Assembly (NCBI RefSeq): GCF_900129225.1
Contig: NZ_FQUG01000004.1
Location: 284,565-348,564, forward strand
DNA: 64,000 bases
Reading direction: 5' to 3'
Origin: Schwartzia succinivorans DSM 10502
Lineage (GTDB): Bacteria > Bacillota > Negativicutes > Selenomonadales > Selenomonadaceae
Both the position numbers and the translations under genes were made by a program. This document shows positions 1,571 to 28,563 of this stretch, one piece after another. How positions within the stretch are numbered: the stretch's first letter is position 1; each line of letters starts with the position of its first letter. The notes beneath the pieces were generated by a model that was not told where the DNA came from, did no database searches, and saw nothing but the letters and a program-made list of their open reading frames with translations.

Positions 1571-3187
1571 TCAGACTTCTTTACGGTCAGGCGGTACCGG
1601 ATAGAGCTGAAGGTCAGGATTATTATCTGTTATCCAGCCCAAAGCCCACTCATTGCTCACCAAAAGCACAGGATATCCGTGACGGTCATATACGAACATA
1701 CCTCTATCTGCTCCCCGGAGCGACGTCGGCGTCACCTCATGTCCGTCCTCATACTGCATCCAGCGTGCAACCTCGTACGGCTGCATAGTGAGTTCTATGT
1801 CTACATTATACTCGCTCTTGAGGCGATATTGCAAAACATCAAACTGCAAGGTACCGACTGTACCGACAATATAGGATTCAGTGCCGGCTCCCGCCTGCTG
1901 GAAAAGCTGTATAGCGCCCTCCTGGGTGAGCTGCTCTATTCCTTTTACAAACTGCTTGCGCTTCATGGTATCCTTGGCCTGAACGCGGGCAAATTTTTCC
2001 GGTGGGAACACAGGGAAATCAGCAAATTTGAATTTTTTCCCTGCATCGCAAAGCGTATCCCCGATTCCGAACACGCCCGGGTCAAAGAGGCCGACAATAT
2101 CTCCGGGATATGCGGTATCTATAATCTGTCTGTCCTGAGCCAGGAACTGCTGAGGCTGAGCAAGCTTGATTGCTTTATTCTCCTGCGCGTGCCATACACT
2201 CATGTTGCGCTCAAATTTCCCCGAAACAATACGGATAAACGCAAGGCGGTCACGATGTGCAGGATTCATGTTTGCCTGAATCTTAAAGACGAATGCAGAG
2301 AATTTCTCATCCTCAGGCTCAATCACACCCTCAGAGGAGAGCCGTGGCGCAGGAGGCGGCGCAAGTCTCAGATATTCTTCAAGGAAGTTCTGCACGCCGA
2401 AGTTCGTCATTGCAGAGCCGAAGAACATCGGAGTAAGGTCACCATGCGCAACCTTTTCAAGGTCAAAGTCCTCGCCTGCTTCATCAAGGAGCGTAATATC
2501 ATCCAAAAGTGCCTGATATGTTTCTTCATCCAGCTTTTCTTTAAGCTCATCTGAATCCAGTTCATAGACGGCGGATTCACGGGCCTTCTGTCCGTGGGTT
2601 TCATCTGCCTCAAAAAGCTCTACCTTCTTGGTCTGGCGGTCGTAAACACCGCGATAGCGTCCGTCAGAACCTACAGGCCAGTTCATCGGATAGGAACGGA
2701 TTCCAAGAACATTTTCCAGCTCGTCCATAAGGTCAATCGGAGCTTTACCGAAGCGGTCAAGCTTATTTACAAACGTAAAAATAGGAATATGACGCTCGCT
2801 GCAGACCTTAAAAAGCTTTTTGGTCTGAGTCTCAACACCCTTGGCAGCATCAAGAACCATGACAGCGCTGTCAACAGCCATCAGTGTACGGTATGTGTCC
2901 TCACTGAAGTCCTGATGTCCAGGAGTATCAAGAATATTGATACGGCAGCCGTCATAATCAAACTGCAGGACAGAGGACGTAACAGAAATACCGCGCTGCT
3001 TCTCTATCTCCATCCAGTCTGAGACCGCATGGCGCTGAGTTTTTCTTGATTTGATGGAACCTGCCAGATGTATAGCTCCTCCGTACAAAAGAAGCTTCTC
3101 TGTCAGCGTTGTTTTACCGGCATCCGGATGGGAAATAATCGCGAATGTACGGCGTTTCTTTATTTCACGGGTTAATTCTTCACTCAT
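1571..3187 (-). CDS. prfC: peptide chain release factor 3 (RF3)
   Basis: A translational GTPase that recycles RF1/RF2 from the ribosome after peptide release. The N-terminal G domain shows the P-loop SHPDAGKTTLTEKLL, the switch II motif DTPGHQDFSEDTYRTL and the NKLD base-recognition motif. A GSAMTNFGVQNFL block typical of RF3 follows, then the C-terminal domains. From the ATG at 3187 the length is 538, close to the usual 525-530. A longer start at 3214 would lie inside potD and lacks an RBS. The chosen ATG shares its A with the potD stop codon (TAATG), so RF3 synthesis is probably coupled to translation of the polyamine-binding lipoprotein. That is an unusual partner. Confidence 0.95.
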   Translation of the reverse strand: MSEELTREIKKRRTFAIISHPDAGKTTLTEKLLLYGGAIHLAGSIKSRKTQRHAVSDWMEIEKQRGISVTSSVLQFDYDGCRINILDTPGHQDFSEDTYRTLMAVDSAVMVLDAAKGVETQTKKLFKVCSERHIPIFTFVNKLDRFGKAPIDLMDELENVLGIRSYPMNWPVGSDGRYRGVYDRQTKKVELFEADETHGQKARESAVYELDSDELKEKLDEETYQALLDDITLLDEAGEDFDLEKVAHGDLTPMFFGSAMTNFGVQNFLEEYLRLAPPPAPRLSSEGVIEPEDEKFSAFVFKIQANMNPAHRDRLAFIRIVSGKFERNMSVWHAQENKAIKLAQPQQFLAQDRQIIDTAYPGDIVGLFDPGVFGIGDTLCDAGKKFKFADFPVFPPEKFARVQAKDTMKRKQFVKGIEQLTQEGAIQLFQQAGAGTESYIVGTVGTLQFDVLQYRLKSEYNVDIELTMQPYEVARWMQYEDGHEVTPTSLRGADRGMFVYDRHGYPVLLVSNEWALGWITDNNPDLQLYPVPPDRKEV

Positions 3188-4245
3188 TACTGTGCTACCT
3201 TCACCTTTGTCCATGCTTTATCGTATTTAGGGAGATTGTCTCCGAGGTCATCAAATACCTCTGTGTTCTTCAAAATATCTGCCGCCGGATATGCAGCGAT
3301 ATCCTTCTGTACAGCCTCATCCAGCTGCTTCTGCACGCTCGGCAGCGGTGTCGCGTAACCAATGTACTCAACGTTTCTCTTTGCAATATCCGGGCGCGTC
3401 ATGAAATTCAGGAACTCTTCAGCCTCTGCCATATGCTTCGTGCCTTTGAGAATTACCATGGAATCAAACCAGAGATTCGTGCCTTCCTTAGGAATAGCAT
3501 ATTCAAGGTCAGGATTCTTTTCCTTCATGAACATAGCATCACCGGACCATACAAGAGCCATTGCTCCCTCTCCGGCTATCATCTTGTCCTTTACCTCGTC
3601 TACAACATAAGCAAGAACCAGCGGCTTCTGCTCGATGAGCTTGTTGGCTGCCGCATCAAGCTCCTTCTCATTTACCGTATTCATCGAATAGCCAAGATAT
3701 TTAAGAGCAATACCGATGGAATCACGCGGGCTGTCCAGCATGAAAATCTGCTTGGAATATTTCTTGTTCCAAAGCATACCCCAGCTGTCCACAGGCTCCG
3801 TCACCATCTTTTTGTTGTAAATGATTCCGAGGGTACCCCACATGTACGGAATGGAATATTCATTCTTCGGGTCATAGGGAAGATTTTTGTACTGGTCACC
3901 AATCTCCTTGTAATTGGAAAGCTTGGAGGTATCAATCTTCTCAACCAAACCCTCTTTAATCATTCGTTTAATCATATATTCTGAAGGAACAGCGACATCA
4001 TAATCGCTTCCGCCGGACTTCACTTTGACGTACATGTCCTCATTCGTTGCGAAGGTATCGTAAATGACATGAATACCTGTTTCCTTCTCAAAATCCTTCA
4101 AAACATCAGGAGCAATAAAATCACCCCAGTTATAAACCTTGAGCTCACGCTGGGCAGTTTTCTTTTCTCCTCCGCAGCCGGTCAGGAGCGCAGCCCCGAT
4201 TACGCATACCATTGCAACGCAAAGAAATTTTACAATCTTTTTCAT
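3187..4245 (-). CDS. potD: spermidine/putrescine ABC transporter, substrate-binding lipoprotein
   Basis: The extracytoplasmic binding protein of the polyamine ABC importer. The N-terminus is a lipoprotein signal (basic MKK, hydrophobic core, lipobox LLTGC with Cys about residue 24), so the mature protein is anchored to the cytoplasmic membrane. Family features include KVYNWGDFI at the mature N-terminus, a hinge containing YDVAVPSEYM, and a C-terminal block with EFLNFMTRPDIA. The 352-residue length is normal. Start at 4245 has a GGGGG-type RBS 7 bases upstream. The gene follows potC by 23 bases and overlaps prfC by one base. Whether it prefers spermidine or putrescine cannot be read from sequence. 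Confidence 0.93.
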   Translation of the reverse strand: MKKIVKFLCVAMVCVIGAALLTGCGGEKKTAQRELKVYNWGDFIAPDVLKDFEKETGIHVIYDTFATNEDMYVKVKSGGSDYDVAVPSEYMIKRMIKEGLVEKIDTSKLSNYKEIGDQYKNLPYDPKNEYSIPYMWGTLGIIYNKKMVTEPVDSWGMLWNKKYSKQIFMLDSPRDSIGIALKYLGYSMNTVNEKELDAAANKLIEQKPLVLAYVVDEVKDKMIAGEGAMALVWSGDAMFMKEKNPDLEYAIPKEGTNLWFDSMVILKGTKHMAEAEEFLNFMTRPDIAKRNVEYIGYATPLPSVQKQLDEAVQKDIAAYPAADILKNTEVFDDLGDNLPKYDKAWTKVKVAQ

Positions 4246-4268
4246 TTAAAATCCCCCTATCTGCCGTT

Positions 4269-5054
4269 TCAGGCATGTTTCTGTTTCTTTTCCCCGGTCA
4301 CCCTGCGGTTAACCGCCAGCAGCAGCACCAGCACCACAAGGAACAGCAGTGTTGACAGTGCATTAATGGTCGGGTGAATACCCCTTCGGGCCATAGAATA
4401 TATCAGGATGGACAGATTATTCACGCCCGATCCTGTCGTAAAGAAGCTGATAACAAAATCATCAATAGACAACGTAAATGCGAACAGCGCGCCTGTCACA
4501 ATGCCCGGCAAAATCTCCGGGAGAACAATTTTGCGGAACGCATAGGACGGGCTCGCTCCCAAGTCAAGTGCCGCCTCGTAAAGAGACTGGTCAAACTGCT
4601 TTAGCTTCGGCAGTACAGTCAAAATAACATACGGAACATTAAATATCGTATGTGCCAGAAGCAGGGAACCAAGCCCAAGATTCATCTTCACAAAGATGAA
4701 CAGCAGCATAAGTGAAATACCCGTCACTATGTCAGGATTCAGGATAGGAAGATATGTGAGATTCATCACAATCTTCTTTTCCCACTGCCGCATATCCTTG
4801 TGCATAGCAAAGGCTGCAAGCGTACCTATAATGGTCGCCAAAACTGCCGAAAGCACAGCTATTGTAAGCGTGTTATAAACAGCGTCAAGAATGGCGCTGT
4901 TACTGAACAGCTCCTCATACCACCGCAGAGTAAACCCGCCCCAGGCAGCACGGGATTTCGAATCGTTAAACGAAAAAACGATAAGAATAAAAATCGGCAG
5001 ATACAAAAAGGCAAATATCAAAGCCGTGTAGGAACGTCGAAGGAATCTCATCAT
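4269..5054 (-). CDS. potC: spermidine/putrescine ABC transporter permease PotC
   Basis: One of the two integral-membrane permeases of the polyamine importer. The 261-residue protein has about six hydrophobic segments, starting with one at about residues 8-28. It carries the EAA coupling loop (YEAALDLGASPSYAFRKIVLP) that contacts the PotA ATPase. The ATG at 5054 overlaps the TGA of potB by 4 bases, and GGAGG lies 9 bases upstream inside potB, indicating translational coupling. The C-terminus ends in a basic RRVTGEKKQKHA tail. It is the typical partner of PotB in a heterodimer. Confidence 0.93.
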   Translation of the reverse strand: MMRFLRRSYTALIFAFLYLPIFILIVFSFNDSKSRAAWGGFTLRWYEELFSNSAILDAVYNTLTIAVLSAVLATIIGTLAAFAMHKDMRQWEKKIVMNLTYLPILNPDIVTGISLMLLFIFVKMNLGLGSLLLAHTIFNVPYVILTVLPKLKQFDQSLYEAALDLGASPSYAFRKIVLPEILPGIVTGALFAFTLSIDDFVISFFTTGSGVNNLSILIYSMARRGIHPTINALSTLLFLVVLVLLLAVNRRVTGEKKQKHA

Positions 5055-5869
5055 AACAGCATCCCTCCGTTCCCGTTCTTATTATAGCGTGAAAGAAGTG
5101 CCATGCTTATTATAATAAGAATCATCATGAAAACCGAAAGCGCTGAGCCGAAATTCCAGTCGCCTATAGCCAGGAACTGCTGCTCAATAACATTTCCGAT
5201 AAGCATGTACTGACCGCCGCCAAGAAGCCTCGAAATAACGAAGGTCGTCACTGCCGGCATAAACACCATCAGCATACCGGCATAAACACCCGGCAGCGAT
5301 AAAGGAAATGTCACCCGCCTGAAGGAAGTCCACGCATCCGCTCCCAAATCCCCCGCCGCCTCCAGAAGGCTTCTGTCCATCTTCATCAGAACCGAATAAA
5401 TCGGGAGAATCATGAACGGCAGGAAATTATACACCATTCCCAAAAGCACCGCTCCGTCCGTATAAAGAAGCTGCAGCGGAGCTATGTTGAAAAACGACAG
5501 AACAGTGTTTATAAGACCTTTCTTTTCGAGGAGCGTCATCCACGCGTATGTCCTCAAAAGAAAGTTCATCCACATAGGAATGATAGTGATAACAACCAGC
5601 ATATTACGGTATTTCACGCGGCATGTAGCAAGAATCATCGCCATCGGATACCCGATTATAAAACAGGCGAAGGTTGAAACAGCCGCAAGCCATACAGAAT
5701 GCCACAAGACCTTCAGATATACAGGCGATGCCGCCTGCTGAATATTTTCAAGAGTAAAGGCGTATGTGCCCTTGACCGTAAAAGCAAAATAAAAAATAAG
5801 TGCCAGCGGTACCACCGTGAAAAGAAGCATCCAGATGTGGTACGGATACACCAGCCACCGTCTCTCCAT
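5051..5869 (-). CDS. potB: spermidine/putrescine ABC transporter permease PotB
   Basis: The second permease subunit of the polyamine importer: 272 residues with about six membrane segments, the first at about residues 13-32. The EAA loop reads LLEAAGDLGADAWTSFRRV and lies about 70 residues from the C-terminus, where it docks on the ATPase. The ATG at 5869 shares a base with the potA stop (TGATG), and a GAGAGGGG ribosome site lies 7 bases upstream inside potA. Order potA-potB-potC-potD matches the classical operon. Confidence 0.93.
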   Translation of the reverse strand: MERRWLVYPYHIWMLLFTVVPLALIFYFAFTVKGTYAFTLENIQQAASPVYLKVLWHSVWLAAVSTFACFIIGYPMAMILATCRVKYRNMLVVITIIPMWMNFLLRTYAWMTLLEKKGLINTVLSFFNIAPLQLLYTDGAVLLGMVYNFLPFMILPIYSVLMKMDRSLLEAAGDLGADAWTSFRRVTFPLSLPGVYAGMLMVFMPAVTTFVISRLLGGGQYMLIGNVIEQQFLAIGDWNFGSALSVFMMILIIISMALLSRYNKNGNGGMLL

Positions 5870-6933
5870 CAGACTGCCCCTCTCACATCATCCGAACGGA
5901 GCATAACATGAATCTCATTCGGACCAATATTGATTCCGACCTCCTGCCCCGCAGGAGTCATCGCCGTACTCTGCGCCAGCCATGAGAAACCGTCGGCAGT
6001 ATCAATTACCATCTCGTAATGAACACCCTTGAAGGTAACCTCACGGACAACACCTGTGAGCATCCCCTGCTCAGGAGAAACAAGAACAATATCCTCAGGT
6101 CTTACAACAATATCTACAGGCAAATCTTCGCCAATCCCACGGTCCACACATACGAACTCGCGGCCGGCAAACTCAACAAGCTCATCTCTCACCATACGTC
6201 CCGGCAAAATGTTACTCTCACCTATGAAATCCGCGACGAACGGATTTTTCGGTTCATTATAAATATCCTCAGGACGCCCGATCTGCTGAATACGTCCGCC
6301 GTTCATGACGACGATAGTATCACTCATAGTAAGAGCTTCCTCCTGGTCATGAGTGACATAAATAAATGTCGAACCTACACGCTGCTGAATACGCTTCAGC
6401 TCTACCTGCATACCCTTCCTGAGCTTCAAGTCAAGCGCAGAAAGCGGTTCGTCCAAAAGAAGAACCTCAGGCTCATTTACCAGTGCGCGTGCAATAGCGA
6501 CACGCTGCTGCTGACCACCCGAAAGAGACTCCACAGCACGCTCGCCGAAGCCTTCAAGATTCACAAGCTTCAGCATCTCTTCAACACGTCTGCGCATCTC
6601 ATCCTTCGGAGTCTTCTTTATTGTAAGCCCGAATGCAATATTCTCAAACACGTTCATGTGCGGAAACAGCGCATGCTTCTGAAAAACCGTATTTACACGC
6701 CTTTTATAAGGAGGCATTTTGCTGATATCCTCACCATCAAAAAGAACCTGCCCAGACGTCGCCTGCTCAAATCCTGCGATAATACGCAACGTAGTCGTCT
6801 TTCCGCAGCCGGACGGCCCCAAAAGCGTCAAAAACTCATTCCTTCGAATCGAAAGATTGATTTTATCTAAAACGGTATGATCCTCGAACTGCTTCGTAAG
6901 ATTTACCAGATTGATAATGCACTGATCCTGCAT
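5869..6933 (-). CDS. potA: spermidine/putrescine ABC transporter ATP-binding protein
   Basis: The ATPase that drives polyamine import. The ABC domain shows Walker [11 protein letters not shown] at about residues 39-47, a Q-loop ([13 protein letters not shown]), signature LSGGQQQR, Walker [12 protein letters not shown] and the switch His in [11 protein letters not shown]-terminal TOBE-type domain (from about residue 240) is consistent with feedback control by internal spermidine, as known for E. coli PotA. The 354-residue length is normal. It is first in a five- to seven-gene minus-strand operon running through prfC. A clear promoter and a hairpin with a U tract lie in its leader (6980-7031). 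Confidence 0.95.
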
Positions 6934-7169: not shown

Positions 7170-9056
7170 TTAAATCATATTCTGTTTATAAGCGACATAG
7201 AGATGTTTGAGCTCTTCCATCTTGTCGTACATTTCGACCTGCAGACCGGATGCCGTTGCATAGTCACCGGACTCAAGAGCATTTACGAGCAGCGTAAAGA
7301 GGGATTTTTCATCAATGCTGTCCTTTGCGAGATATGCACGGATGCCGCTGATTTTCGTCCAGTTATAGGAATCCTGATCTGTGACAGTGTCGGCTTCAAT
7401 CTCCTTTGCCTTGCGGACGATGTCCCTGTTCTCAGGGATGATACGACTCTCAAGCTCTGTCTTCCAGCGAAGAAGTGCGCCTTCAACGAAGGAATTGACG
7501 ATTGCTTCATCCAAAGCACCGCCTGCCGTTACAATAGCACGTTTCTCTGGGAAGTTTGTCAGGTTTTCCATATTCTCCCAAACAGTTGCAGGGGGAGCAC
7601 CGAACATGCGGTCACGTTCTTCCTGCGTGTAATCCTCGAATACATCCTCCTCACTTCTGTAAGCGCGGTCTTTTTCAAGGTAGAAGCCCTCTTCACCCGG
7701 CTTTTTGGAAAGCTCCTTCAAAAGCTCTTCGGTTGTGTGCTCGGCCGCCATCTTCGCGCCGTCGAGAACTGCGGAATATATAGCGGCCAGCGCGACGTAT
7801 GTATTCGTATACGGATTGCATGCGCGGAGTTCGAAACGTGTAGCCATAGGATTGCCTACATCACGGATAAGACCTGCGAGAATCGTACGGTTACGGGACG
7901 GAACCTCAGGTGTAGTGCCAATCGACGTAACAATACATACAGGAGCTTCAAATCCCGGTTTTAAACGGTTGAATGCATCATTGGTTGCGGAAACAAACGG
8001 ATTGATAACCTCGTAGTTTTTCAGAATACCCATGATAGCACCGTAACCGATGGCACTCATGAAATCCTTCTTGAGTTCCTTGGGAGCAAAGAGATTGACG
8101 AGACTGCCGTCCTTCATGCGTGCAGCCATTCCGATGTGTGTATGCTCACCGTTGCCTGCAAGACCAATCATAGGTTTCGCCTTGAAGTTAACCTCAAGAC
8201 CGTTTTCACGGAAAACCTCTTTTACAAGTGTGCGGACGAGAAGCTCGTTATCCGCGGCCTGCAGTGCATCGGCAAATTTCCAGTCAATCTCAATCTGCTC
8301 GCATACATGGGACATGTTGCCGGATTCATCAATGTGTGCCTTGAGACCGCCAACCTCTTTATGACCCATCTCTGCGCTAAGGCCGTAATCATCAAGCATC
8401 GCTACGCTCTGCTCAAGAGCTGTGCGGACTGCACCGCGTGTGCGCTGCCAGTACTGCTCCTGCATAACCTGTGAAGCACTCATCTCAGCGATATCTGCTT
8501 CCTCCAACGGTGTCTTAACCCAGAACTCAAGCTCTGTTGCCGAGGTAAAAACGATATCCTCAACATTTTTCCCGTTAACATGCTCAAGACCTGAAACCGT
8601 CGGATGCTTTTTGAAAAGTGCAAGCATTTCATTTTTTACGAATTCAAGGGTATCTTTCAGAACAGAACGGGAATCGACATGCTTTCCTTCATGAATCAGG
8701 AATGCCGGGATACGGAGTGTACCGACCGGTTTCTCAAGCCCTTCGTCATAGTTTTCATAGTTATAATCTACGAACCAGTTAACTGACGGGTCAATCGGCA
8801 TGTCTACCTTCGCGTTATTCAGTGTAGCAATGCCCGGGAGAACAACAGAAGAACCGTCTGTCTGGACTGCAGTGCCGGCATAGAAATCATCAATATCCTT
8901 CAGGAAAATACGCATCGGAATTTTCTCATCCGTATCGTTTCCGGCAAGGTCAACACCGACGAGGGAAACGAATTTGATTTCCGGGTGTTCTCTGAGGGAT
9001 TCGAGAATTTTTTCTTTCGGAGTGTTTGCAGGGATTACATAAAGCAGATCTTCCAT
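7170..9056 (-). CDS. glnA: glutamine synthetase, long variant (about 628 aa)
   Basis: ATP-dependent synthesis of glutamine from glutamate and ammonia. Catalytic-domain signatures are present: TELEFWV and EMGHKEVGG (metal-binding Glu residues), NGEHTHIG (His of the ATP/metal site), RNRTILAGL and RFELRACNP. The protein is much longer than ordinary GSI (about 440-470), with a helical C-terminal extension of roughly 150 residues that is rich in Glu and Lys. This resembles long glutamine synthetases of anaerobic Bacillota, but I cannot place it firmly in GSI, GSIII or another class. The start is the ATG at 9056, with AAGGTG 9 bases upstream. An ORF extension to 9155 runs through the leader hairpin and is rejected. 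Transcription appears controlled by an operator-like repeat and a leader terminator. Confidence 0.88.
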   Translation of the reverse strand: MEDLLYVIPANTPKEKILESLREHPEIKFVSLVGVDLAGNDTDEKIPMRIFLKDIDDFYAGTAVQTDGSSVVLPGIATLNNAKVDMPIDPSVNWFVDYNYENYDEGLEKPVGTLRIPAFLIHEGKHVDSRSVLKDTLEFVKNEMLALFKKHPTVSGLEHVNGKNVEDIVFTSATELEFWVKTPLEEADIAEMSASQVMQEQYWQRTRGAVRTALEQSVAMLDDYGLSAEMGHKEVGGLKAHIDESGNMSHVCEQIEIDWKFADALQAADNELLVRTLVKEVFRENGLEVNFKAKPMIGLAGNGEHTHIGMAARMKDGSLVNLFAPKELKKDFMSAIGYGAIMGILKNYEVINPFVSATNDAFNRLKPGFEAPVCIVTSIGTTPEVPSRNRTILAGLIRDVGNPMATRFELRACNPYTNTYVALAAIYSAVLDGAKMAAEHTTEELLKELSKKPGEEGFYLEKDRAYRSEEDVFEDYTQEERDRMFGAPPATVWENMENLTNFPEKRAIVTAGGALDEAIVNSFVEGALLRWKTELESRIIPENRDIVRKAKEIEADTVTDQDSYNWTKISGIRAYLAKDSIDEKSLFTLLVNALESGDYATASGLQVEMYDKMEELKHLYVAYKQNMI

Positions 9057-9083: not shown

Positions 9084-9136
9084 GAAAAAAGAAAGAGCCT
9101 TACGACACCCGCGCACAGCACAGGCTCGTAAGGCTC
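9084..9136 (-). terminator. glnA: strong leader terminator upstream of glnA (candidate attenuator)
   Basis: On the minus strand an 11-bp stem (GAGCCUUACGA / UCGUAAGGCUC, 9136-9126 and 9105-9095) extends through a small internal loop into a second 7-bp stem with a UGU loop. It is followed by UUUCUUUUUUC. It begins about 20-25 bases after the predicted start point and ends about 30 bases before the glnA RBS. No gene lies upstream on this strand, so it is best explained as an attenuator of glnA itself. Confidence 0.75.
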
Positions 9137-9165
9137 CATTGCCTTCGTTTTTCAATTACAAGGAG

Positions 9166-9194
9166 AGTATAACACCACGATTCATGTTTGTCTA
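9166..9194 (-). promoter_or_regulatory. glnA: glnA promoter
   Basis: Minus strand: -35 TAGACA (9194-9189), exactly 17-base spacer, -10 TATACT (9171-9166). Each box matches 5 of 6 consensus positions. Confidence 0.75.
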
Positions 9195-9219
9195 TAGTTT
9201 TTTTCAAAAAAAATAGACA
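9189..9219. promoter_or_regulatory. operator-like inverted repeat over the glnA -35 box
   Basis: Perfect 7-bp inverted repeat TGTCTAT (9189-9195) and ATAGACA (9213-9219), separated by 17 A/T-rich bases. The proximal half-site covers the -35 box, as expected for a repressor or activator site. The binding protein is unknown. Confidence 0.55.
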
Positions 9220-9469: not shown

Positions 9470-10213
9470 ATGGGAATTATTGCTTTTTTTATTTCACTCA
9501 TTGTTTTAGGAATCCTGTATCGTAGAATGATTGCACGTGGCGTACCCGAGCCCATCGGCCGAATGCAGGCTGTCGTTCCTGTTTTACTTGGAGTTGTTTC
9601 TGCACCGCTGTCCTTCATTTTTACATTGACGTGCGGTTACTTCCTTTCGACCAATGGATATACCCCTGCTGACCATTCCCTAATCACGCAGTCCGTAGTT
9701 TCAGCCTTTTTATTTGCCGGACTTACAGAAGAACTGGCCAAATTTCTTATGATTTTGGCTTCATCTGCAATCTTCAGCCGCACCGTCAGAAACGTCTATG
9801 AATACACGCTGATAGGCGCAGCCGTCGGCATGGGATTTACCTTGCCTGAAGAAATACTTTACGGCTCTGATTTGCTGGGATTATTATTCAGAATTGATTT
9901 CATCGCCGGGCATATGATATTCGGAATTTTAATGACTTATTTCCTTGGCATGGCAAAATACAAAAAACTCACAGCTCAAGGCTCACCAACACGGGAATAC
10001 GTACTGGCGTTACTGGTGCCTATGCTGATGCACACACTTTACGATACCTTCACCGCAAACAATAAATTTCTGACCGATGCAGATGAAAACATTCAGATGA
10101 TCGGAGCCGGCATGGGAATTGTAGTGGCACTTGCCGCGTTCGTTATTCAAATCGTGATTCTTGTAAAGCACAAAAAGAACGCTGAAAAGCTATGCTCTCT
10201 GCGCCTGTCGTAA
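9470..10213 (+). CDS. PrsW-family intramembrane protease
   Basis: A polytopic membrane protein of 247 residues related to PrsW/CAAX-protease-like intramembrane peptidases. Characteristic motifs are EELAK at residues 87-91, a second Glu pair in GFTLPEE (127-128), His148 in GHMIFG and His188/Asp192 in MHTLYD. These polar residues lie in otherwise hydrophobic helices. In B. subtilis PrsW cuts an anti-sigma factor; no sigma/anti-sigma pair is visible here, so the substrate is unknown. The RBS AAAGGAG is 9 bases before the ATG. The gene is divergent from glnA and is followed by a 19-bp palindrome. Confidence 0.85.
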   Translation: MGIIAFFISLIVLGILYRRMIARGVPEPIGRMQAVVPVLLGVVSAPLSFIFTLTCGYFLSTNGYTPADHSLITQSVVSAFLFAGLTEELAKFLMILASSAIFSRTVRNVYEYTLIGAAVGMGFTLPEEILYGSDLLGLLFRIDFIAGHMIFGILMTYFLGMAKYKKLTAQGSPTREYVLALLVPMLMHTLYDTFTANNKFLTDADENIQMIGAGMGIVVALAAFVIQIVILVKHKKNAEKLCSLRLS

Positions 10214-28108: not shown

Positions 28109-28185
28109 TGGTGGCGGAAGGGAGATTCGAACTCTCGACACTGCGGGTATGAACCGCATGCTCTAGCCAACTGAGCTATTCCGCC
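28109..28185 (-). tRNA. tRNA-Met (CAU), elongator
   Basis: Cloverleaf with a GGCGGAA acceptor paired to UUCCGCC, anticodon CAU, a T-arm with GUUCGAAUC, and an encoded CCA end. It has a paired G1-C72 and so is the elongator type. It could instead be an Ile tRNA whose anticodon C is modified (k2C), which the sequence alone cannot exclude. Confidence 0.88.
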
Positions 28186-28198
28186 ATGTTAAATTATA

Positions 28199-28274
28199 TG
28201 GAGCTGATGACCGGGATTGAACCGGTGACCTTATCCTTACCAAGGATACGCTCTGCCGACTGAGCTACATCAGC
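28199..28274 (-). tRNA. tRNA-Thr (GGU)
   Basis: Acceptor GCUGAUG / CAUCAGC, anticodon loop UUGGUAA giving GGU, T-loop GUUCAAUCC, CCA encoded. It is separated from tRNA-Met by 13 bases. Confidence 0.95.
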
Positions 28275-28286
28275 ACGCTGAGCATT

Positions 28287-28362
<76 letters not shown>

Positions 28363-28370
28363 ATAAAAAA

Positions 28371-28455
28371 TGGTGGGCAGGGATGGATTCGAACCATCGT
28401 AGCCTACGGCGACGGATTTACAGTCCGTTCCCTTTAACCACTCGGGCACCTACCC
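28371..28455 (-). tRNA. tRNA-Tyr (GUA)
   Basis: A class II tRNA of 85 nt with a long variable arm, anticodon GUA in a CUGUAAA loop, acceptor GGGUAGG / CCUGCCC and encoded CCA. It lies between the two initiator tRNA copies. Confidence 0.95.
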
Positions 28456-28487
28456 ATGCAACAGCACCTAAGCGCTGGAAAATGCTT

Positions 28488-28563
<76 letters not shown>

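Follow-up and report, generated by a model that had tools for sequence, protein, structure and literature searches.

A conserved RNA hexaloop over the leader terminator of glnA in Selenomonadaceae, a likely target of ANTAR antitermination

In the 64,000-nucleotide stretch of the Schwartzia succinivorans genome analysed here (the window), a promoter for the glutamine synthetase gene glnA is followed by a leader with a strong terminator-like hairpin. What is such a hairpin doing between a promoter and its own gene, and what could allow RNA polymerase to pass it?

The hexaloop and the terminator in the glnA leader

The region comprises the following features.

7170-9056, minus strand: glnA, glutamine synthetase (open reading frame; PF00120, E = 3e-36), with its ATG at 9056-9054 and the ribosome-binding site AGGTGG at 9070-9065.
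9085-9136, minus strand: intrinsic terminator, with stem 9136-9126/9105-9095, an inner stem and the U run 9094-9085 (fold z = -6.7).
9130-9145, minus strand: predicted antiterminator hairpin AAGGC[AAUGGA]GCCUU, read from the sequence, with loop base 1 (A1) at 9140, loop base 4 (G4) at 9137 and the conserved core GGC[6]GCC at 9143-9132.
9146-9159, minus strand: predicted RNA 5' end at about 9159 (6-7 nt past the -10) and a short 5' stretch without the upstream hairpin P1.
9166-9194, minus strand: glnA promoter, with -35 TAGACA (9194-9189), a 17-base spacer and the extended -10 TGTTATACT (consensus scan, 10/12).
9189-9219, strandless: 7-bp inverted repeat overlapping the -35, earlier called an operator and probably incidental (176 comparable positions in the window; absent from the other 77 leaders).

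The promoter with an exact 17-base spacer described in the first-pass annotation was readily recovered as TAGACA-17-TATACT (9194-9166, minus strand), and in the same scan the -10, TATACT (9171-9166), was preceded by TG. The compound leader hairpin it had reported is equally sound. On the minus strand, the hairpin at 9136-9095 runs into the U run UUUCUUUUUU (9094-9085), and the segment 9160-9080 folds at -38.6 kcal/mol, as against -18.8 (sd 3.0) for shuffled sequences (z = -6.7), none of 200 shuffles being as good; the terminator is thus far above chance. Nor can it serve as the 3' terminator of another minus-strand gene, because the gene closest upstream of the leader, at 9470, is divergent, in line with the earlier remark that no gene precedes the leader on its strand.

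That divergent neighbour (9470-10213, plus strand) encodes a PrsW-family intramembrane metalloprotease. The genes 3' of glnA (3187-6933, minus strand) read like a spermidine/putrescine ABC transporter, the ATPase matching the profiles ABC_tran and TOBE_2. Elsewhere in the window we found a ribosomal protein L10 leader (RF00557, 25550-25682, minus strand, 47 bits) and, on the same strand, five tRNA genes (28112-28563).

The first-pass annotation had seen no ANTAR pattern in this leader. This was wrong, because the 5' arm of the terminator overlaps a hexaloop with the published ANTAR signature, A1 and G4. According to the available portion of PMC3369931, antitermination by ANTAR proteins consists in their holding such hexaloops in the RNA, and the eut box that lies across the terminator arm reads AGCAANGRRGCUY. 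In the window, AAGGC[AAUGGA]GCCUU (9145-9130) contains GGCAAUGGAGCCU, which equals the eut box except for one compensated base pair. It has both features of an ANTAR hairpin of the P2 type: an A1/G4 hexaloop, AAUGGA, carried by a stem of 3 bp or more (AAGGC/GCCUU), and a position over the 5' arm of the terminator. That arm also contains the hairpin's 3' half, the GCC being common to both structures.

Prefix folding from the inferred start gave the hexaloop hairpin first (-5.7 kcal/mol at 30 nt), which the terminator displaced once its 3' arm had been made (-30.5 kcal/mol at 65 nt). When the GGC/GCC pairs were held in the folding, the base of the terminator was lost, and only its upper part was left, parted from the U run.

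We consider it very likely that the glnA leader acts as a compact antiterminator under ANTAR control, with a single hexaloop. By default, the nascent leader would fold into the terminator and transcription would end before glnA. An active receiver-ANTAR regulator, presumably the one whose gene lies beside that of a HisKA_2 kinase, would bind GGC[AAUGGA]GCC as it emerges, keep the GCC off the terminator 3' arm and let the polymerase read into glnA. The signal is probably nitrogen limitation, judging from the genes that carry the element in relatives. Several points weigh against a single-hexaloop switch, namely two genomes (G140 and G141) that depart from the pattern, the small number of independent losses, the need of the eut system for both hairpins, the changed EutV contact residues R168, N173 and R177, and the absence of covariation in the stem.

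The element in relatives, before glnA and other genes

GlnA was found in 180 of the 189 genomes of the family (Selenomonadaceae), and 111 glnA upstream regions from the family were compared. In a search that left the loop bases unconstrained (GGC-N6-GCY, with the GCC starting a terminator helix of at least 6 bp), the element was joined to a terminator in 74 of the 111 regions, once per region. Loop base 4 was G in all 74; base 1 was A in 65 and G in 9, base 2 was A in 68 and G in 6, and the remaining loop bases varied. When loops of 4, 5, 7 or 8 bases were demanded in place of 6, the search returned 1, 0, 0 and 0 regions, respectively.

The pattern GGC[RRNGNN]GC, which itself demands G4 and a purine at loop base 1, matched 79/111 regions. 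In 75 of these 79 leaders, the GCC forms the exact start of a terminator helix of 5 bp or more, so that the P2-type position of the hexaloop over the 5' arm is kept; 33 different 6-mers follow the GCC with the pairing preserved, which supports the terminator. The plain pattern GGCRRNGNNGCC alone was not discriminating (138 matches vs 120 for the reversed pattern), and the glnA region of Pelosinus (L250) held no match to the hexaloop pattern.

The first-pass annotation had proposed a covariance search for an antiterminator stem in relatives. The hexaloop hairpin is kept with its terminator in 74/111 regions; the 3-bp GGC/GCC stem is invariant among glnA leaders and therefore gives no evidence of covariation. 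Below these 3 bp, pairing among 69 distinct glnA leaders was at chance, and the AA/UU extension of the stem in the window is consequently not a family feature. An extended -10 (TGnTAnnnT) was found in 71/78 leaders, in 67 of these 71 at 21-31 nt before the hexaloop stem; RNA synthesis therefore probably starts 15-25 nt before the hexaloop.

The same leaders bear on the proposal of two levels of control, by DNA binding and by conditional termination. The latter is strongly supported by the joint conservation of terminator and hexaloop hairpin in 74/111 regions; DNA binding through the inverted repeat is not. The repeat, TGTCTAT (9189-9195)/ATAGACA (9213-9219) with a spacer of 17, is indeed present and perfect, as the first-pass annotation had stated when describing it as operator-like. 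The window, however, holds 176 start positions of similar repeats (arms of 7, spacer of up to 20, overlapping ones counted), or 2.75 per kb, and among the 78 leaders with enough upstream sequence this particular repeat occurs in one, the window's own. Some 7-bp repeat lies in the promoter region of 23/78 leaders vs 8.7 expected from shuffles within 10-base blocks, which is above chance, many of them being A/T tracts. We rejected the operator reading, as the repeat is at chance level and not common to relatives.

Relatives may have a further control at the level of DNA, because the palindrome GTATAC stands just upstream of the -35 in 33/78 of their leaders (1.8 expected). It occurs as (T)GTATAC(A), for example in L022, L021 and L057, about 70-75 nt before the hexaloop; it looks like the operator of a DNA-binding regulator, and it is absent from the window.

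The element is not confined to glnA. The one amt match of the window's genome carries GAC[AACGAC]GUC over a terminator. In a set of 31 amt regions (this one and 30 loci of the 54 matches listed), the element was present in 27/28 regions from genomes with an ANTAR gene and in 0/3 from genomes without an ANTAR match above cut-off, whereas shuffling predicted 1.6/31. Left blind to the loop bases, the search gave 38 hexaloop-terminator sites in 26/28 regions from ANTAR genomes, with G4 in 33 and A1 in 31. Two complete hexaloop-terminator modules stand in tandem in 11/31 amt regions (e.g., L357, L362, L364 and L379). The stem varies between GGC/GCC and GAC/GUC, with longer flanks such as UGGAC/GUCCA, CAGAC/GUCUG and AAUAAGAC/GUCUUGUU.

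Run over other loci of the window's genome, the amt detector yielded 15 matches in 172,650 bases (both strands), a count that includes glnA and some sites seen twice in overlapping loci. A separate match in this genome, L329, reads by eye as coding sequence (dxs) and was dropped. Within the window, 9 hexaloop-terminator sites matched mechanically; by helix, U run and position, only that of glnA was convincing.

The pattern GGCAANGNNGCC with a downstream T run gave 103 matches in 97 genomes, vs 26 for the reversed control. The helix from loop to T run reached at least 6 bp in 66 of the 103 and at least 7 bp in 60. The 65 ANTAR genomes account for 58 of these 60, some of which may be chance matches in coding sequence; among the 32 other genomes, G129 alone has any, namely two. 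Among the elements examined in relatives, some precede genes for ammonium transporters, one of them fused to a PII domain. Others stand before family 3 binding proteins, a xanthine/uracil permease, serine dehydratase, a class III aminotransferase, and sodium:solute, alanine and dicarboxylate symporters. The list further includes a PLP enzyme, which we take to be diaminopropionate ammonia-lyase, a LamB/YcsF gene, presumably for oxoprolinase, and an amino-acid permease, assumed to transport ethanolamine, which in G049 lies directly behind a second ANTAR gene. In genus g9, an element precedes a histidine kinase gene. Genes with no nitrogen link also appear behind elements (a TonB receptor, L311, and PGA_cap, L313), and a class-wide pattern search turned up terminators with a single hexaloop outside the family as well; by eye, these precede ABC-transporter ATPase genes, among others.

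One hairpin or two, and the ANTAR proteins

The ANTAR targets described in the available portion of PMC3369931 have two hairpins, P1 and P2. The eut leaders carry two hexaloops 5-12 nt apart, and induction is lost when P1 is altered (PMC3369931, PMC8934654). The glnA leader could thus be a canonical dual-hexaloop target whose P1 is degenerate or unusual enough to have been missed. Following the published definition, we searched for P1 as a hairpin of 3 bp or more that bears an A1/G4 hexaloop, the linkers in eut being 5-12 nt. Such a hairpin stood upstream of the glnA hexaloop in 3/78 leaders (8.3 expected), in 17/78 (21.3 expected) when only G4 was demanded, and in 5/73 (10.1 expected) in an earlier version of the search; in the window, the 40 nt upstream of the hexaloop contain no A1/G4 hexaloop hairpin. 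Before the first amt hexaloop, P1 was found in 1/27 cases (2.2 expected). For the other regulon genes, we kept 31 of 38 elements, those with terminators judged real, leaving out among others L316, a near twin of L308; P1 preceded 4/31 (2.8 expected), or 5/32 with L316 included. A class-wide set of 14 out of 30 loci, picked for apparent terminators, gave a single P1 (1/14), weak and from inside the family. Furthermore, the folding energy of the 26 nt that precede the glnA hexaloop is barely lower than that of shuffled sequences (-1.35 vs -1.12 kcal/mol).

The pxpA (LamB/YcsF) leaders L308 and L316 do have a good P1-like hairpin upstream of the hexaloop, CCAGT[AAAGGT or ACAGGT]ACTGG, that is, CCAGU[ANAGGU]ACUGG in the RNA, and the P1 finder was run without a known eut leader as positive control. 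Both facts leave some room for a second hairpin, but with P1 at or near chance before glnA, amt and the other genes alike, and nothing much folded ahead of the glnA hexaloop, we regard a hidden dual target as unlikely. Because P1 was sought and not found, the glnA element is not a member of the class by the strict dual-hairpin definition. A new point is that the glnA leaders show no excess over chance of P1, the hairpin on which the Enterococcus eut system depends.

The candidate regulator can be named. PF03861 matches a single protein of the window's genome, above cut-off (E 7.9e-19): a receiver-ANTAR regulator adjoining a HisKA_2 histidine kinase, which is the two-component arrangement of EutVW and PdtaSR. 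In 14 control genomes, Bacillus subtilis among them, the profile had no match. Among the best-scoring ANTAR loci of the family, a kinase homologue was present at this locus and at 19/19 others outside genus g4, with a weaker one (E 1e-31) beside the second ANTAR gene of G049. At three g4 ANTAR loci, representing two genes, none was found. In L154 (3351-3938) and L144 (1492-2121), the ANTAR gene lies 3' of glnA with no kinase homologue in the locus; the receiver domains of these two proteins score weakly, that of L154 falling below the Pfam cut-off.

We aligned 24 family ANTARs to EutV, mostly from best-scoring loci and with one gene entered twice (L107 and L143). R142, K143, K149, E160, Y164, M172 and R175, whose contacts with loop or stem are reported in the available portion of PMC8934654, are conserved in 23 or all 24 of them. 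K147 is R in 23/24 and R168 is Q in 23/24, and N173 and R177 are not kept. The receiver-ANTAR protein of the window's genome matches 1s8n (E 2.5e-57), which is Rv1626 (PMC8934654, available portion), better than EutV itself (6wsh, E 5.5e-45).

PF03861 exceeded the cut-off in 101/189 family genomes. In the 104 of these 189 for which a usable glnA upstream region was retrieved (L005 and L028 being too short), 70 had both the element and an ANTAR gene, 24 had neither, 6 had the ANTAR gene only and 4 the element only, giving a Fisher p = 4e-14 that ignores relatedness. Of the 10 discordant genomes, four in the 'ANTAR only' cell (G039, G040, G170 and G182) have the loop and failed the strict terminator rule; in the other two (G124 and G185), the regions seen held no loop. 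The element-only G129 and G139 are fragmented assemblies from a genus in which others have ANTAR. G140 and G141, which belong to one genus, are single-contig genomes with no PF03861 match and constitute a true exception; their glnA leaders (L050 and L049, respectively) keep an intact hexaloop, as a relic or as the site of another factor.

A tree of 44 GlnA sequences, picked by genus, and one outgroup places the element in the deepest branches. Its topology suggests two or three ANTAR losses only, in g6 and g11 (weakly joined) and in the g20/g24 clade, and the weight of the association is limited accordingly. In the 14 genomes of genus g6, there is no ANTAR match and the loop is gone, with the promoter-like region of glnA kept by eye. 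The loop is likewise gone in the g11 regions fetched and in G177, and kept in g20. In genus g4, the ANTAR gene follows glnA in both genomes (G021 and G022), and both leaders have the loop.

Could the hexaloop be bound by some other RNA-binding factor, with ANTAR presence merely correlated? The glnA elements of G140 and G141 and the scarcity of independent losses would fit this idea, which we nonetheless find improbable in view of the A1/G4 rule, the eut box, the linkage of ANTAR gene and glnA in g4 and the EutV contact residues that are kept. Moreover, the narrow regulon pattern has a single match in G140 and G141, with a helix of less than 6 bp, and hence the glnA copy there may be a leftover; the class-wide pattern adds two matches in G141. 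It is still harder to believe in a constitutive attenuating terminator that needs no regulator: the terminator alone is very stable, yet it would then have no need of a hexaloop with invariant G4 on its 5' arm, and in g6 the loop has gone together with ANTAR. As for a small-molecule riboswitch, T-box or leader peptide, which a terminator ahead of an amino-acid biosynthesis gene might bring to mind, we can practically dismiss them, since the Rfam covariance models gave no match in the leader at the gathering threshold or up to E = 5 (as the first-pass annotation had anticipated for T-boxes and known glutamine riboswitches), the 15-25 nt or so between inferred start and hexaloop are too short for a known aptamer, and the conserved part ahead of the terminator is 12 nt.

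Relation to known ANTAR systems

The closest parallel to the proposed single-hexaloop antiterminator is EutV/EutW of Enterococcus faecalis. The two systems share an A1/G4 hexaloop and a eut box over the terminator 5' arm, a receiver-ANTAR protein with a partner histidine kinase, a nitrogen theme and most of the loop-contact residues; they differ in that eut uses two hexaloops, whereas the glnA leaders have one, 21-31 nt behind the -10. NasR and AmiR, whose sensor domains are other than that of the receiver-ANTAR protein considered here, offer two further comparisons. As presented in the available portion of PMC3369931, they act on the nasF and amiE leaders, respectively, where a hexaloop again lies over a leader terminator before nitrogen genes, with the difference that their targets are dual hairpins. 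The same source predicted ANTAR regulons that include glutamine and glutamate synthases and ammonium transporters; these gene classes agree with ours, although the search behind them required two hairpins.

Single hexaloops have been noted elsewhere. PMC8934654, in its available portion, mentions stem-loops in Mycobacterium that 'do not always obey' the dual motif, as well as an additional hexaloop in EutX; a one-loop site is proposed there, as it is here, but in that portion these loops, which lie outside terminators, are not presented as antiterminators of natural leaders. For the LOV-ANTAR light receptor NmPAL, the RNA ligands are single small hairpins (PMC11381354; for its ANTAR nature, PMC8934654), and one hairpin is thus enough for binding; in the portion of PMC11381354 available, the receptor serves, together with aptamers, to control translation by design and not as a switch at a natural terminator. 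The EutV-RNA structure paper takes one hexaloop as the minimal ANTAR motif, while eut antitermination uses both, and states that the role of single hexaloops needs further work (PMC8934654, available portion). The glnA element agrees with this minimal site and extends the view to leader terminators.

In the open-access literature, to which our survey was confined, we met nothing on ANTAR together with Selenomonas or Mitsuokella, and no title on the topic for Negativicutes or Veillonella. Judged by the listings, no description of a single-hexaloop glnA switch was encountered there.

On a broader scale, and with correspondingly less confidence, it seems probable that the ANTAR proteins of Negativicutes govern an entire nitrogen regulon by means of single hexaloops situated close behind the promoters, that one hexaloop suffices for natural antitermination, and that the tandem amt modules make for a steeper or graded response. 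If so, the two-hairpin requirement of EutV would not be a general rule. These genomes hold many natural, conserved single-hexaloop terminators, and the role of single hexaloops becomes directly testable, because the likely regulator of these leaders can be named. For the organisms themselves, the leaders hint at a circuit that controls ammonia assimilation in the rumen and gut relatives of the family.
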